Part shown: piece by piece, positions 20,878 to 58,976 of the stretch | Layout of the letters: each line of letters starts with the position of its first letter | How positions within the stretch are numbered: position 1 is the stretch's first letter | Origin: Patescibacteria group bacterium | GTDB taxonomy: Bacteria > Patescibacteriota > Patescibacteriia > 2-12-FULL-60-25 | Assembly (NCBI GenBank): GCA_028688515.1 | Contig: JAQTXZ010000003.1 | Location: 62,001-126,000 of the forward strand | DNA length: 64,000 bases | Direction of reading: 5' to 3' | The notes under the pieces: generated by a model | The model's input: the letters and a program-made list of their open reading frames with translations, nothing else | Database searches by the model: none | What the model was told of the DNA's origin: nothing | Position numbers and translations under genes: made by a program

Positions 20878-20967
20878 ACTTCGACTTTGCTCAGTATGCC
20901 CTGATTAAATAGATGGGCATAGTTTGAGGAGTTTAGCTAAAAACAGCCTGACGGTCAAGAACTAAAA

Positions 20968-21026
20968 ACTAACAACTGACAACTTACAAGAGTTGCTTAG
21001 TTGCTCTTGTTAGTTGTTAGTTGTCA
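20968..21026. repeat. Palindromic repeat, ACTAACAACTGACAA family
   Basis: Left arm ACTAACAACTGACAACTTAC then AAGAG; centre TTGCTTAGTTG; right arm CTCTTGTTAGTTGTTAGTTG. Lies between tig and the M23 gene. Confidence 0.85.
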
Positions 21027-21029
21027 GTC

Positions 21030-22490
21030 CTATCTTATATACAACAGCGGATTGACGCGCTTACCGTTGACGTAAACCTCGAAGTGTAAGTGCGAACCGG
21101 TGGAACGGCCCGTCGATCCCATCATGGCAATGACTTGGCCGCGATGAACCGTGTCGCCGGCTTTGACAAAAAGTTTTGAAGCATGGCCGTAACGGGTTTT
21201 TATGCCGTTCGGATGATCTATCAAAACCATCAAGCCGTAACCGCCGCTGTTCCAACCGGAAACTTCTACAACGCCATCCTCTGCCGCATACAAAGGCGAA
21301 GTGAAGTCGCCATCAACATCAAGACCGGTATGCTTCCAGCCATAGTATTGAGTAATAACGTGACCACTGGTCGGCCAAAGCAATTTTGTTTTTATCGCGT
21401 TAGGCCTCTCTACGACATCTGAAGGTTTTTTAGTCGGGTTTGCTGTCTGAGGCACTGAAACCGAAGACGCTCCAGGCTCTGACAAGCGCGTTGCAGCCTC
21501 CTTACTGTTGCCGACAGCCAGTATTCTCGTTTGTTCGATCGCCGCCGGTTGCCCACCGGGGACTACCAATGCCATGCCGACTTTTACCTGACCTTCCGCC
21601 AGATTATTTTGCTGAGCAATTTCATCCGCATCAGCACCGTAACGATTGGCGATTGCAATTAAAGTATCTCCCTTTTTTACGGTTGCCAGCACGCCGGAAA
21701 CCGGTAGAATCTTCAAACTGTCTCCCGGTCTGATATATTGGCGTTCAGTTAAGTTATTGGCCCAAAGTATCGTTCCGACATTTATGCTGTAATCATTTGC
21801 GATACTGCCCAATGTGTCGCCTTCTTTAACAATATACGTTTCAATACTTTGACGCTTGGGCTTGATCGTGGCATTTTCTTCTGCTTTGTGATCCATCGGC
21901 GTCAAAGCCAAAGTACCGGGCATGTTGGATGTTACATCGCTCGGCTCGTCGGTAACTTGAGTGTAATCAAAATCAATATGCGGGATTGCGGCGATGGTGC
22001 CGGCGCTAAGACGATCCTCGCCGGGTTTAACGTTTTCCGCAACGGCTTGTTCGCTTACAATTTCGGCATCGCCGCTCGTCATTAAATTATAAAGCAAGCT
22101 ATGTTTGCCAATGTCTTGAGCCAAAACCTGACGAGCTTGTAAGTTTGACCATATGGTAACCGTTGAAACTATGAGGATTGCGAAATGAAACAAATATCTA
22201 TTGGTAACAAAAAACAAAATAAAGCCTCTGGCAGGCAAAGATAATCTCTGTAATTTTAGCTTGCCAAGAACAGCCACTTGATAAATCGGCAATACGATAT
22301 ACTTAATGATCCATTTGCCGACAGGATATATCAGTGGCCAAAGTATTCTCACAAAAAAATATTCAAGGCCTTTTTTCAGTGCCCGAATGCCGCGCATGAC
22401 TTTAATGCCGGCAGAGGTTAAAAATGGTGATGGGGGGTTATTAGATATATAGCCTCCGATTAAGACCCATGTTCTAGCCAAATTATGCAA
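21030..22490 (-). CDS. M23 metallopeptidase with two LysM domains
   Basis: 486 residues using a TTG start at 22490; an ATG at 22397 is the alternative. Membrane-proximal helices (~55-125), two LysM repeats (~215-260 and ~265-310: YIVKEGDTLGSIANDYS, VKKGDTLIAIANRYG), then an M23/LytM domain (~370-486) with HTGLDVDGDF and HLHFEVYVNG carrying zinc ligands. Cleaves peptidoglycan cross-links at the cell surface. The residues after the TTG (YISNNPPSPFLTSAGIK) look conserved-like, favouring the longer start. Confidence 0.9.
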   Translation of the reverse strand: MHNLARTWVLIGGYISNNPPSPFLTSAGIKVMRGIRALKKGLEYFFVRILWPLIYPVGKWIIKYIVLPIYQVAVLGKLKLQRLSLPARGFILFFVTNRYLFHFAILIVSTVTIWSNLQARQVLAQDIGKHSLLYNLMTSGDAEIVSEQAVAENVKPGEDRLSAGTIAAIPHIDFDYTQVTDEPSDVTSNMPGTLALTPMDHKAEENATIKPKRQSIETYIVKEGDTLGSIANDYSINVGTILWANNLTERQYIRPGDSLKILPVSGVLATVKKGDTLIAIANRYGADADEIAQQNNLAEGQVKVGMALVVPGGQPAAIEQTRILAVGNSKEAATRLSEPGASSVSVPQTANPTKKPSDVVERPNAIKTKLLWPTSGHVITQYYGWKHTGLDVDGDFTSPLYAAEDGVVEVSGWNSGGYGLMVLIDHPNGIKTRYGHASKLFVKAGDTVHRGQVIAMMGSTGRSTGSHLHFEVYVNGKRVNPLLYIR

Positions 22491-22650
22491 TTACAACCTG
22501 ATTTTGACCAAAAAACGTGTCTGTTTAGCCAAATTTCTTTACAATCGACATTGTATAGAGGACTTCTAAACTAGCAAAAGCTAGGCCTGATGTCAATCAA
22601 ATTTTACACATTTTTGTCAGCCGCTTGACAGACATCAAATACATGGCTTA

Positions 22651-22678
22651 TTTAAGCCAAATTTTGAGCGCACAACAT
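22651..22678. repeat. Inverted-repeat arm, left of four-helix-bundle gene
   Basis: 28 bases pairing with 23221-23248, 25 of 28 identical (core AAATTTTGAGCGC). All three differences become G-U pairs in RNA of the gene-sense (minus) strand. Confidence 0.85.
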
Positions 22679-22683
22679 AAAAC

Positions 22684-23112
22684 TCATGCTGCTACCGGCA
22701 CAACAACGGGCTCGATCGATCGTTCAACCGCTGATTGCACATTCACTTCTTTTGGTTTGGGATGTTCCATGGAATAAATCAAACTCGAAAGAAGTTTTTG
22801 AATTAACGTGTTTGCTTCTTTTAATCTTTGCAACTCCTCGGCGTGCTTTGGATGCAATTCCTGCAACAACAACAGATAAGTTTCACACTCAGCCGAGTTT
22901 CCATTGGCGTAGTTCAGACATCTGATAAAATCCTTACCCCGCTTGCGCTGGCCTTCGGCAATATGCGCCGGCATGGCCACGGCCGCGCGGCACAGATGAG
23001 ATGCAACGCCGTATTTATCTTCCGTTGGCAAAGTTTTTGTTAAGGCGTAAGCACTTTTTGCAAAGTCAAAACTTTGCTGCCAAACGACAAGGTCGCGAAA
23101 TGATTGATACAT
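22684..23112 (-). CDS. Four-helix-bundle protein (S23/IVP-like)
   Basis: 142 residues. Family pattern: FRDLVVWQQSFDFAKSAYAL at the start, LCRAAVAMPAHIAEGQRKRG in the middle, FIRCLNYANGNSAECETYLL after. The family is named for proteins encoded in 23S rRNA intervening sequences; its molecular role is unknown. The C-terminal ~25 residues (VERSIEPVVVPVAA) are an extra tail. The gene is enclosed by a 28-base inverted repeat. Confidence 0.9.
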   Translation of the reverse strand: MYQSFRDLVVWQQSFDFAKSAYALTKTLPTEDKYGVASHLCRAAVAMPAHIAEGQRKRGKDFIRCLNYANGNSAECETYLLLLQELHPKHAEELQRLKEANTLIQKLLSSLIYSMEHPKPKEVNVQSAVERSIEPVVVPVAA

Positions 23113-23121
23113 AGTTTTTTT

Positions 23122-23155
23122 AATTACGAATTACAAATTACGAATTACAAATTAA
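23122..23155. repeat. TTACGAATTACAAATTA repeat
   Basis: Tandem words AATTACGAATTACAAATTA. A similar stretch lies at 25738-25775. Confidence 0.6.
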
Positions 23156-23220
23156 GGAGTTTCAACACATAACACATATCACATAACATCTAAACCGTTC
23201 CATGCTACGTGCTCCCTGGC

Positions 23221-23248
23221 ATGTTGCGCGCTCAAAATTTAGCTCAAA
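23221..23248. repeat. Inverted-repeat arm, right of four-helix-bundle gene
   Basis: Partner of 22651-22678. Preceded at 23165-23220 by TAACACATATCACATAACAT-type words. Confidence 0.85.
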
Positions 23249-23270
23249 TTGTCAAAAGAACTTTCTGTTT

Positions 23271-24803
23271 TTAGTTTGCTTCGACTTGCTGGCGATACTG
23301 TAAAGCCTCTGCCACGTGCGACTGCTCTATCACGTCTGACGATTCCAAATCGGCAATAGTCTGCGAGACGCGCAGCACTCTAAAATAAGACCTGGCGGAA
23401 AGATGAAAGCGATCTGCAGCCTGACGCATCAATTTTTGAGCCTCTGGCGATTGAATCAGATATTTCCGAATTTGATCGCTGCGCAGCTCCGAATTTGTCA
23501 GCGCTTTTATTTTGTCTTGCCGCGCAGTTTGTCGGTCGCGCGCTGCCTGAACTCTGTTGCGAATACTTTGACTCGATTCTCCGTTCTCGATCTTTACCAG
23601 ATCTGACGTCAAAACGCGCGGCACACTGACTTTTAAATCAATACGATCCAAAATCGGACCGCTGACTTTTTTTGAATAACGCAGCGCGATCATCGGTGAA
23701 CAAGTGCACGCCCTTTCCGGATCAGATGCATAACCGCACGGGCAAGGGTTCATGGCGGCAACCAAAATAAAACGCGCCGGGAAACACACGGTGCCAAGCG
23801 CGCGCGAAACGGACACGAATCCGTCCTCGAGCGGCTGGCGCAAGTTTTCCAAAACTTGGCGCGTAAACTCCGGAAACTCGTCCAAAAACAAAACTCCGCG
23901 ATGCGCCAAAGAGACTTCGCCCGGACGCGGATGCGTTCCGCCGCCGACCAAAGCAGCGCCGCTCGCAGTGTGGTGCGGAGAGCGAAACGGCCGAGATAAA
24001 CACAAACCGTCGCGCGACAAAATACCGGCAACGGAATGGATGCGCGTAACCTCGAGAGTCTCGTCGCGAGTAAGCGATGGCAATATTCCAGGCAAAGCGC
24101 GCGCAAGCATTGTTTTGCCGGAACCCGGCGGACCCGAAAGAAGAATGTTGTGCGCCCCGGCAGCCGCAATCTCCAAAGCACGTTTAGCTTGGTTTTGACC
24201 CTTAACTTCCGCGAAATCCAAAACTCGCGCATCTTGCAAAACATTGCCAATGTCAACCGTTGGAAAAATCGACATCACTTCGGCGCCACTCAAATGGTCC
24301 ACGACTTGTTTTAAGTTTTGCGCAGCAAAAACCTTAACTCCGTTTACCAGCGCCGCCTCGCGGGCATTTTCCGCAGGAACTATCAACTCTTGATTGTCTG
24401 TTCTTTGTGCAAACATGGAAACAGACAAGGCGCCGTGTACCGGACGCAAGCTTCCGTCCAAGCCAAGCTCGCCGACCATCACAGGCCAACCGTTTTTAGG
24501 TTCATCCAACTGTTCGGACGCGACCAAAAGCGAAATCGCCAACGGCAAATCATAACCGGATCCGCCTTTGCGAATGTCCGCTGGCGCCAGGTTGATTGTC
24601 ACGCGAGTCGGCGGAAAATGCAGACCGCTGCGTTTCATGGCGCTCCTCACTCTTTCGCGCGCCTCTTGCACGGCCGTATCCGGCAAACCCACAACCATAA
24701 ATGCCGGCAAACCAAAAGATATATCCGCTTCGACCGAAACCGCGTACGCGTCCAAACCGATGATTGCAGCAGTGGGAATAGGCATATATATACCCGGTTC
24801 CAT
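23271..24803 (-). CDS. comM: YifB/ComM family Mg-chelatase-like AAA ATPase
   Basis: 510 residues. N-terminal Lon-S5-like domain (SFGLPAFMVVGLPDTAVQEA near 30), Walker A SGPPGSGKTMLARALPG near 218, SPHHTASGAALVGGG, Walker B GVLFLDEFPEF near 300, zinc cysteines NPCPCGY..CTC near 355, and C-terminal lid. ComM is a hexameric branch-migration helicase in natural transformation. The start region is copied at 15704-15724. Confidence 0.93.
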   Translation of the reverse strand: MEPGIYMPIPTAAIIGLDAYAVSVEADISFGLPAFMVVGLPDTAVQEARERVRSAMKRSGLHFPPTRVTINLAPADIRKGGSGYDLPLAISLLVASEQLDEPKNGWPVMVGELGLDGSLRPVHGALSVSMFAQRTDNQELIVPAENAREAALVNGVKVFAAQNLKQVVDHLSGAEVMSIFPTVDIGNVLQDARVLDFAEVKGQNQAKRALEIAAAGAHNILLSGPPGSGKTMLARALPGILPSLTRDETLEVTRIHSVAGILSRDGLCLSRPFRSPHHTASGAALVGGGTHPRPGEVSLAHRGVLFLDEFPEFTRQVLENLRQPLEDGFVSVSRALGTVCFPARFILVAAMNPCPCGYASDPERACTCSPMIALRYSKKVSGPILDRIDLKVSVPRVLTSDLVKIENGESSQSIRNRVQAARDRQTARQDKIKALTNSELRSDQIRKYLIQSPEAQKLMRQAADRFHLSARSYFRVLRVSQTIADLESSDVIEQSHVAEALQYRQQVEAN

Positions 24804-41326: not shown

Positions 41327-41338
41327 AAGATAAAGATA

Positions 41339-41419
41339 ACTAACAACTTACAACTAACAACTTACAAGAGTTGCTTAGTTGCTAAATCGCTCTTGTTAGT
41401 TGTTAGTTGTCAGTTTTAA
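41339..41419. repeat. Palindromic repeat, ACTAACAACTTACAA family
   Basis: Tandem left words AACTAACAACTTACAACTAA, centre AAGAGTTGCTTAGTTGCTAA, right CTCTTGTTAGTTGTTAGTTG. Confidence 0.85.
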
Positions 41420-41423
41420 GTTA

Positions 41424-41462
41424 TAAAAAAATTCCCCGCCGGACAGGACGTCCAACGGGGTT
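41424..41462 (-). terminator. Terminator of receiver-like gene
   Basis: Minus strand CCCCG/CGGGG hairpin followed by AATTTTTTT. Confidence 0.7.
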
Positions 41463-46339: not shown

Positions 46340-46606
46340 TTTAACCGGATCGATTCCTCCCCTACTCCACGGGTTGCAGCGCAGGATGCGCCAAATCGTC
46401 ATCGGCACGCCGCGGAAGACTCCGTATTTCATTATCGCTTCGTACCCGTATTGGCTGCACGTCGGATAATATCTGCAAGCGCCGACGCGCACATATTTGT
46501 GTAACGGGCCGTGATCGAGAGAGAGCGTGCGCTGGTACAACCAAATTAACCCACAAACTGTGCGGCGGGGCAATAAAACTAACAACTGACAACTTACAAG
46601 AGTCAT
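46337..46606 (-). CDS. yidD: Membrane protein insertion efficiency factor YidD
   Basis: 89 residues. Family core [32 protein letters not shown] and [14 protein letters not shown]. The ATG at 46606 is inside a palindromic repeat arm and overlaps the stop of the four-helix-bundle gene (ATGA); TTG codons further in are alternative starts. Normally adjacent to rnpA; here separated by an inserted gene. Confidence 0.88.
46578..46603. repeat. Half-palindrome arm, left of second four-helix-bundle gene
   Basis: ACTAACAACTGACAACTTAC then AAGAGT, the standard left arm of the dispersed family. Its partner lies at 47014-47038, 410 bases away, 24 of 25 matching. Confidence 0.88.
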
Positions 46607-46971
46607 TTAGTTTTTTCGTCCACTAAACCATTCACCAAGCCTTGAAGCATCTTGGATATTGTTGTCGATCTGAGTAACATTGATTGATAATCTGCGTCAA
46701 CAAAGTAGCCAAGTTGCAAACCCAATTTTAACATCGACCTTACTTCACCACATGAACCTTTGGCAATCAACAAATGATTAATAAAGGCGCGGTTAGAACT
46801 TCTCTCAAATCCCTCAGCAATATTGTTCATAATAGATACAGCCGCCCTCTGTATCTGATCCTTGTAACTAAAATCTTTGTTAAGTTTTAATCTAATGTAT
46901 ATTTCCAGTGCAAGCACATCCGCTTCTTGCCAAGCTTTCATATCCTCAAATCTTCGAAACAAGATCCCCAT
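46603..46971 (-). CDS. Four-helix-bundle protein (S23/IVP-like), inserted between yidD and rnpA
   Basis: 122 residues from [14 protein letters not shown]. Family pattern: [37 protein letters not shown] near 45, and [19 protein letters not shown] near 80. The gene fills the loop between two matching repeat arms, breaking the usual rnpA-yidD pair. An upstream in-frame Met at 46995 is possible. Confidence 0.88.
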
Positions 46972-47013
46972 ACAAAATTTACAATTATAGGCCAATCAAC
47001 AAAATACTCATCA

Positions 47014-47038
47014 ACTCTTGTCAGTTGTCAGTTGTTAG
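47014..47038. repeat. Half-palindrome arm, right of second four-helix-bundle gene
   Basis: ACTCTTGTCAGTTGTCAGTT then GTTAG. It supplies the last codons and stop of rnpA (ANN-stop). Confidence 0.88.
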
Positions 47039-47498
47039 CCTTTGGCTTCACGAACCTCGCTCCTACCGCAACCTTCCCCTTCCCCATCTCTTTGCGGGCA
47101 CGCGGAGAAAGCTTAAGCGGTTTTTTCATTGTTTCCGGAATTTTGGAAAGCATATGCAAGACCTCATCTTTCATCGCCTGATAATCTGCCGTCAAAGTTT
47201 CGGGTTTAAGAATGAATAGAAGATGGTAACCGGGAGGAATTTGCGGCAAAAGCTCGTGCAAAGCGGAGCGAAAACGCCTTTTGGCCAAATTTCTCTTGAC
47301 CGCGCGCTTAAAAATCTTAGTCGAGATGATAAAACCGATTTTAGACGGCTGCAAACCCACCGTACCCCCCTTCGCAGTAGAAGCGGACGCGTCCAAACGC
47401 ACGCGTAATGTTGCAAAAAGACCAAAAACAGACCTGCCCTTGGTAGCCATTAGTGCAAAATCTTTGGTTTTTTTGAGACGGCTTTGTTTGGGCAGCAT
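47028..47498 (-). CDS. rnpA: Ribonuclease P protein component
   Basis: 156 residues, longer than the usual ~120 through a C-terminal extension rich in Lys (MKKPLKLSPRARKEMGKGK). Central signature RAVKRNLAKRRFRSAL near 65 and the start MLPKQSRLKKTKDFA. Binds RNase P RNA for 5' tRNA maturation. Downstream of rpmH as usual. Confidence 0.92.
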   Translation of the reverse strand: MLPKQSRLKKTKDFALMATKGRSVFGLFATLRVRLDASASTAKGGTVGLQPSKIGFIISTKIFKRAVKRNLAKRRFRSALHELLPQIPPGYHLLFILKPETLTADYQAMKDEVLHMLSKIPETMKKPLKLSPRARKEMGKGKVAVGARFVKPKANN

Positions 47499-47510
47499 AA
47501 AGACAGTCTA

Positions 47511-47590
47511 AACTGGAAACTAGAAACTGGAAAGAGCTACACGGTAACTAAATTGCTCTTTCTAGTTTCCAGTTTCTAGTTGCCAGTTAA
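47511..47590. repeat. Palindromic repeat, ACTGGAAACTAGAAACTGG family
   Basis: Left AACTGGAAACTAGAAACTGG AAAGAG, centre CTACACGGTAACTAAATTG, right CTCTTTCTAGTTTCCAGTTT. Between rnpA and rpmH. Confidence 0.85.
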
Positions 47591-47620
47591 AACGAAATCC
47601 CGCGCTAGGCGGGATCGTTT
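47591..47620 (-). terminator. rpmH terminator
   Basis: Minus strand GATCCCGC/GCGGGAT hairpin with CTA(GC) loop, then TTCGTTTT. Confidence 0.75.
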
Positions 47621-51885: not shown

Positions 51886-52004
51886 ACTAGAAACTGAAAA
51901 CTAGAAACTGGAAAGAGTAGAATAGTAAAAAAGAGTTGATATGGGTCAACTCTTTTTGTAAATCAAAACTCTTTCCAGTTTCTAGTTTCCGGTTTCCAGT
52001 TTAA
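51886..52004. repeat. Palindromic repeat, ACTAGAAACTGG family, with inserted terminator
   Basis: Left ACTAGAAACTGAAAACTAGA, AACTGGAAAGAG; centre holds AAGAGTTGA/TCAACTCTT plus TTTTTG, a plus-strand terminator suited to dnaN; right CTCTTTCCAGTTTCTAGTTT. Confidence 0.82.
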
Positions 52005-58145: not shown

Positions 58146-58752
58146 TTTTGACTTAGATTAGGCAATTTTAAGAGTCTTAAAATAACTTATCATTGTTTCA
58201 CGTGAAACATATCGATAGTCACGCCACAAATACGATAGTTATTGTTTCTAGCATGTTTAACGTTTTTTGTTTCACGTGAAACAATGTTAGGAGCTTTCGA
58301 TCATGGTGTGTTAAAAAGTGTTTCACGTGAAACAATTAGTAATATTGTGTGACAATGTCGTGGTATGTGTTTCACGTGAAACACTGAACAGAATGCGTTT
58401 GCAGTTTTGTGTGATGTTTGAGAATCACGATGTTTCACGTGAAACATTTATAGCTTAATTAGATTTAAAGATTTTATTGAAAATCTACTGTCTCAGGATA
58501 TGGATAGTTTATGATTTTCTTGTAAAGTTTGTAAATATTTCAAATTGTTTCACGTGAAACAATTCTGTTTTGATTAAACTTATTGAAAAGTTGCATTTCA
58601 AGAATGTTTCATGTGAAACAAGTCTAAGGACTTCAGTAATGACTAACAAGGATTGATTAATTTTTGCTATTGTTTCACGTGAAACAATTTATGATCAATG
58701 ATAAAGTCGAAATTATCAAGAATGTTTCACGTGAAACATTCTGTGAAACATA

Positions 58753-58771
58753 AAACCCGCTTACACGGGTT
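58753..58771 (-). terminator. Terminator of tRNA-Ala
   Basis: Minus strand ACCCG/CGGGT hairpin, then TTTATG; weak T-tract. Confidence 0.5.
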
Positions 58772-58778
58772 ATATATG

Positions 58779-58854
58779 TGGTGGACCGAGGGGGATTCGA
58801 ACCCCCGACCTCTGCAATGCGAATGCAGCGCTCTACCAACTGAGCTATCGGCCC
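58779..58854 (-). tRNA. tRNA-Ala (CGC)
   Basis: Minus strand: acceptor GGGCCGA/TCGGTCC, anticodon arm CTGCA-TTCGCAT-TGCAG, T loop TTCGAAT, discriminator A, encoded CCA (58781-58779). Confidence 0.95.
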
Positions 58855-58976
58855 TTGGACAATTAACGATTCTCGCAGTTTGATATTTGGAAAATGTTTC
58901 ACGTGAAACATTTTGTATATAGGTGGATCGTCACCGCGAATAGTGGATGACAGCCACCCGAAGCTTCAGCGTAGGG

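Follow-up and report, generated by a model that had tools for sequence, protein, structure and literature searches.

Intervening sequences (IVSs) are commonly regarded as an oddity of rRNA, and we know of no function that has been assigned to the S23p or "four helix bundle" protein family in more than 25 years. The terminal repeats of the Coxiella rRNA IVS form a 28-bp stem with an S23p ORF inside, and GACAGAT heptamers lie ahead of the ORF, RNase III cutting at the first repeat (PMC4990558). S23p from Xanthomonas has been described as a homopentameric ring (PMC4990558). IVP genes have been described in rRNA inserts of CPR bacteria (PMC11270868), and one is located between cmr3 and cmr2 in a cyanobacterium (PMC3936711). 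The PF05635/S23p protein family and IVSs are known already; the inverted-arm layout described here adds a broad and testable generalization.

The locus under study lies within the window, i.e., the whole stretch of 64,000 nucleotides from a Patescibacteria group bacterium that was analyzed. It is composed of the following features:

21030–22490, (−) strand, LysM/M23 peptidase gene, conserved co-directional downstream neighbor
22650–22678, (−) strand, 3' arm, in gene sense ATGTTGTGCGCTCAAAATTTGGCTTAAAT, a few nt past the stop codon of the four-helix-bundle (FHB) gene
22684–23112, (−) strand, PF05635/S23p-type FHB gene assigned by profile match and fold, 142 aa, with the conserved C-terminal tail EPVVVPVAA
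23122–23154, (−) strand, tandem 7-nt repeats AATTACA/AATTACG, 4.7 copies, in the spacer from 5' arm to start codon
23164–23188, (−) strand, 3.6 copies of another tandem 7-nt repeat, AACACAT, in the same spacer
23221–23249, (−) strand, 5' arm, in gene sense ATTTGAGCTAAATTTTGAGCGCGCAACAT, starting ~21 nt past the end of yifB
23271–24803, (−) strand, yifB (Mg-chelatase-like AAA ATPase), conserved co-directional upstream neighbor

As the first-pass annotation had proposed, the ORF enclosed by the arms is an FHB gene; it matched PF05635 with an E value of 1.5e-25 and 89.9 bits (curated cut-off, 33.8) and TIGR02436 "four helix bundle protein" with 85.9 bits (curated cut-off, 24). It is the sole ORF in the loop, and a transposase is absent from the element. 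A structure model calculated from seven orthologs (pLDDT 85) gave the best fold matches to the S23p structures 2gsc and 2rld, followed by Avd proteins of diversity-generating retroelements (8ub7 and 4dwl). The gene product shares sequence family and fold with the PF05635/TIGR02436 proteins XCC0516 (2GSC) and BT_0352 (2RLD), to which it adds a genus-specific C-terminal tail. This tail (coded at 22684–22720) is disordered, follows the pattern E-P-x-x-V-x-V-x-A with mostly VAA in the seven orthologs, and recalls C-terminal protease tags. At two other loci (L017 and L077), the FHB domain forms the C-terminal end of ~380-codon open frames, representing either a fusion or an upstream run-in.

The arms at 22651–22678 and 23221–23248 were found exactly where the first-pass annotation had placed them, with 25 of 28 positions identical. 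The three non-Watson–Crick positions on the (−) gene strand are G-T, T-G, and G-T, and all of them become wobble pairs in the sense RNA. One further outer pair extends the repeat to 22650–22678/23221–23249 (29 nt, 90%). In 300 first-order Markov copies of the flanks, chance matches reached a maximum of 21/28 (mean 18), and 5 of 400 random draws from the window reached 25/28, a set in which the same repeat or the heptamer hairpins of the window may be included. Solo palindromes built from these arms, which the earlier annotation had suggested looking for, did not occur elsewhere in the genome; the exact pattern matched the two arms only.

Compared with the 23S rRNA IVSs that carry S23p (Coxiella, Leptospira), the element has in common the S23p/PF05635 ORF in the loop, a stem of ~28 bp, and the position in a transcribed unit (PMC4990558); heptamer direct repeats ahead of the ORF, present in the window copy, may be a further likeness. 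In contrast to these IVSs, it is located between yifB and the M23 gene and not in an rRNA gene, and its arms are unrelated to rRNA helices. An Rfam search of the 64-kb window identified tRNAs only and no rRNA.

Ortholog-strength matches (E < 1e-73) among genomes sampled from the class were confined to the window's own genus, where seven of nine genomes had the locus, some of them named Parcubacteria or Ca. Uhrbacteria. The gene order yifB, arm, FHB gene, arm, and LysM/M23 gene was the same in all seven. The two genus members without the FHB ortholog were also without yifB and M23 matches in their assemblies, and in genome G003 the M23 match was divided over two contigs. In most other genera of the family, yifB adjoins the M23 gene without an FHB gene (gap of 70–290 bp in those read); an exception is genome G011 with an FHB gene of another clade and heptamer-like arms at this junction, and genome G023 has a longer gap. 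Judged from sequence comparison, the element is fixed between yifB and the M23 gene and vertically inherited in the genus. Phage relatives of the locus were not detected by megablast. The orthologous FHB proteins were 53–78% identical to the window protein, and dN values of 0.10–0.46 at saturated dS indicated strong purifying selection on the protein, in contrast to the IVS protein, which decays.

The neighborhood of yifB is a hotspot: additional FHB genes with different arms were present on one or both sides of it in G005, G007, and G008 (L044, L056, and L037). In the gap between yifB and a class B gene of G007 (L216), a small GIY-YIG-like ORF was apparently located between inverted repeats identified by eye (CGTCATCCTGAACTCG.. 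and ..CGAGTTAAGGACGACG), a further small gene sandwiched in this way.

The arm sequences of the seven orthologs diverge strongly between species, and complementarity is kept over 20–29 bp around a loop of 468–542 nt. The first-pass annotation had named arms diverging without compensatory changes as the outcome that speaks against a selected stem. For 17 aligned pairs of the seven orthologs, the covariation score was 0.633 versus 0.230 ± 0.040 for shuffled data (0 of 500 as high), 97.5% of the cells paired, and 10 pairs were altered on both sides, showing that divergence was compensated. When the partner was slid by one to three columns, pairing fell to 30–56% (~40% for one column), a control that is partly favored by construction as the pair alignment was made by hand and the structure was derived from the same sequences. 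When the arms were aligned by hand over their full length, 18 columns had at least two Watson–Crick types, and the inner core of the arm, AGCGCGCA, was kept in most species. In minimum free energy folds of the sense strand, most or all of the arm was paired in seven of seven orthologs. The spacer between arm and start codon comprises 15–58 nt in the six other orthologs, leaving little room for heptamers, of which the window copy has two arrays; in three orthologs it is only 15–22 nt, so that the gene must either have a promoter of its own that overlaps or lies ahead of the arm, or be transcribed from yifB.

The types of mismatch within the arms differed between this locus and others. The seven orthologs had eight G-U, two A-C, and one other mismatch, compared with 67 G-U, 86 A-C, and 242 others at other FHB loci of related genomes (Fisher's test: p = 1e-4 for G-U versus the rest, p = 0.045 for G-U versus A-C). 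G-U as the favored mismatch at the yifB–M23 locus is the pattern expected of a stem in the sense RNA; within the seven orthologs alone, the 8:2 ratio was not significant (p = 0.11).

A second element in the window, also with an FHB gene, consists of:

46579–46616, (−) strand, 3' arm, from inverted-repeat search
46606–46995, (−) strand, second FHB gene, inserted between rnpA and yidD within rpmH-rnpA-yidD
47001–47038, (−) strand, 5' arm with AACTGAC heptamers, from inverted-repeat search

These arms (38 nt, 84% match) are of the heptamer type and, in agreement with the earlier annotation, unrelated in sequence to those at 22651. The further proposal that the architecture and not the sequence recurs held for the layout, but arm sequences recur as well within protein clades (see below). 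Most relatives have no insertion here, with a few to ~60 bases between rnpA and yidD; an FHB gene of a different clade occupies this junction in G008, and gene-less heptamer arrays occupy it in G014 and G019. Within 46340–47507, rnpA takes its stop codon and the yidD open frame its first codons from the heptamer arms. Gene-less hairpins of tandem 7-nt repeats were observed at 20958–21031, 41336–41424, 47506–47593, and 51886–52000, two of which end on the loop side in AAGAG(T) like the arms of the 46606 FHB element. Such hairpins could be non-autonomous copies.

The layout was general among FHB genes. PF05635 genes were present in 38 of 57 related genomes, sporadically distributed with 0–15 copies per genome, and inverted arms (score of at least 28 between the flanks) enclosed 93 of 107 FHB copies in the related genomes versus 1.6% with swapped flanks. 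In a second set from Acidobacteria, Planctomycetes, cyanobacteria, Bacteroidetes, Nitrospirae, and others, with a few CPR members, 63 of 78 FHB loci had inverted arms versus a null of 7%, which is higher here because heptamers are common to several loci. Strong tandem arrays had a period of 7 in 90 of 185 FHB loci; no other period between 5 and 12 was seen in more than 14 of them, and the median copy number was 4.7. A heptamer consensus shared across loci was weakly better than shuffled letters; protein clades had common arm units (ATGTAGC, AATAACC, GAATCT/ATTTCG, and GTACCT-like). Arm similarity in the same orientation tracked protein similarity (r = 0.25, p = 0.001, kinship being ignored; reverse-complement control, r = −0.01), which shows the arms to be part of the element.

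Both neighbors were co-directional with the FHB gene in 123 cases and both opposed in 10 (both sets), and this differed from the 7 versus 4 of Y1 transposases as control (p = 0.013). Ordinary genes in the FHB loci were also co-directional (167:23), so that orientation alone is weak evidence, namely that the FHB gene behaves like an operon gene. At the Y1_Tnp control loci (L238–L251 and L260), 13 of 28 Y1 transposase genes had inverted repeats in their flanks, as is expected of REP-associated transposases.

At heptamer-armed loci, the ratio of G-U to A-C mismatches was 75:88 in the related genomes (seven orthologs included) and 84:59 in the second set. On these ratios, selection on the sense RNA as the general keeper of heptamer arms was rejected. 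Co-directional heptamer loci had the opposite bias (41:64). The balance of G-U and A-C implies that heptamer arms are kept alike by something strand-blind, which could be homogenization at the DNA level or a function of the arms as DNA. For the locus at 22650–23249, the selected RNA stem claimed by the first-pass annotation stood in part: the arms are constrained and covary in a layout as in ribosomal IVSs, whereas pairing that acts in the RNA is a probable feature only, the G-U bias being absent at heptamer loci.

We favor, with some reservation, the explanation that this locus is an IVS-type element as found in 23S rRNA, placed between protein genes. This reading draws on the ribosomal precedent of the Coxiella stem, S23p ORF, and heptamers; rRNA anchor motifs were not found among the FHB loci fetched, so that the link to rRNA IVSs rests on the literature. 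The stem probably acts in the sense transcript. The transcript that runs on from yifB in this sense would fold into a long-range stem of 20–29 bp and hold the FHB gene in a loop of ~500 nt. By analogy with the rRNA IVS, RNase III, a gene for which is present in the genome, may cut the stem, upon which the insert would leave the mRNA and the neighboring messages would be separated. Solved relatives of the FHB protein are pentameric rings; the protein may bind the arms, and the ~five 7-nt repeats of typical arms could be read one per subunit. Such binding might protect, process, or autoregulate the element.

Alternatively, the arms could work as DNA: the element would be mobile, with terminal inverted repeats or iterons that the FHB protein binds in looping, excision, or host-helped transposition, and the window copy would be a domesticated, immobile descendant. 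The sporadic multi-copy spread (0–15 per genome), the insertion polymorphism with independent insertions at rnpA–yidD (G000 and G008) and yifB–M23 (G011), and arms that track the protein clade fit this explanation, as do the missing G-U bias at heptamer loci and the resemblance of the window's gene-less heptamer hairpins to non-autonomous copies. However, the element has neither transposase nor recombinase, and its operon-sense orientation (123:10) is unlike that of Y1 transposases and non-random in contrast to DNA transposons or insertion sequences with terminal inverted repeats. REP/TnpA-REP (RAYT) systems likewise have a small gene in inverted repeats, and the heptamer families resemble them in having gene-less repeats elsewhere in the genome, but the FHB protein is a four-helix bundle without a Y1 HUH transposase and the arms at the window locus are unique in the genome. 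This copy has no solo arms in the genome and its mismatches favor G-U. Overall, we consider a DNA-level role here rather unlikely.

Strand switching can homogenize inverted repeats, and the FHB gene might be an ordinary regulatory gene of a yifB–M23 operon in which gene conversion or template switching between the inverted copies maintains the likeness of the arms, the stem being unselected. Vertical inheritance and purifying selection agree with this, and many of the covarying columns include transversion-type changes. It leaves unexplained the dominance of G-U among the remaining differences, the retention of the GCGCGC core and of the stem length despite saturated divergence, and the same layout at FHB genes across phyla, which makes it improbable. 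A role of the FHB protein as Avd-like partner in a diversity-generating retroelement, whose template or target repeats would be the arms, is hardly credible: the fold does match Avd (8ub7 and 4dwl), but these rank after the S23p structures, no reverse transcriptase lies near the locus, and the genome's single reverse-transcriptase match, on contig C4, is a fragment containing a stop. This reading was disfavored for want of a usable reverse transcriptase in the genome.

The IVS-type explanation may extend beyond this locus. We put forward tentatively, as possible rather than probable, that S23p-type genes across phyla supply the protein component of a large, so far unrecognized class of intervening elements in mRNA operons, in which the pentamer would read ~five 7-nt repeats, one per subunit, in the stem of its own transcript, arms and protein would co-evolve, and ribosomal IVSs would be the rRNA branch. 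In the open-licence papers searched, no literature was found that connects PF05635 genes outside rRNA with inverted heptamer arrays on either side of them. Intergenic heptamers of the TAACTGA type in Beggiatoaceae, cyanobacteria, and Bacteroidetes are likewise 7-nt tandem arrays (PMC4679880), but the FHB gene is not named there, whereas the arrays described here flank FHB genes in inverted orientation. If FHB genes regularly sit in inverted arms, mostly of 7-nt repeats, that follow the protein phylogeny, the arms become the obvious ligand candidate, the unexplained intergenic heptamer arrays of many bacteria gain a candidate maker, and IVS biology could be studied in ordinary mRNA. The yifB–M23 locus with its seven covarying orthologs offers a clean starting place.

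Apart from these elements, ten parS sites (TGTTTCACGTGAAACA), one of them mismatched, are clustered in ~720 bases of the window (58194–58910), probably as the chromosome partition center near the origin.
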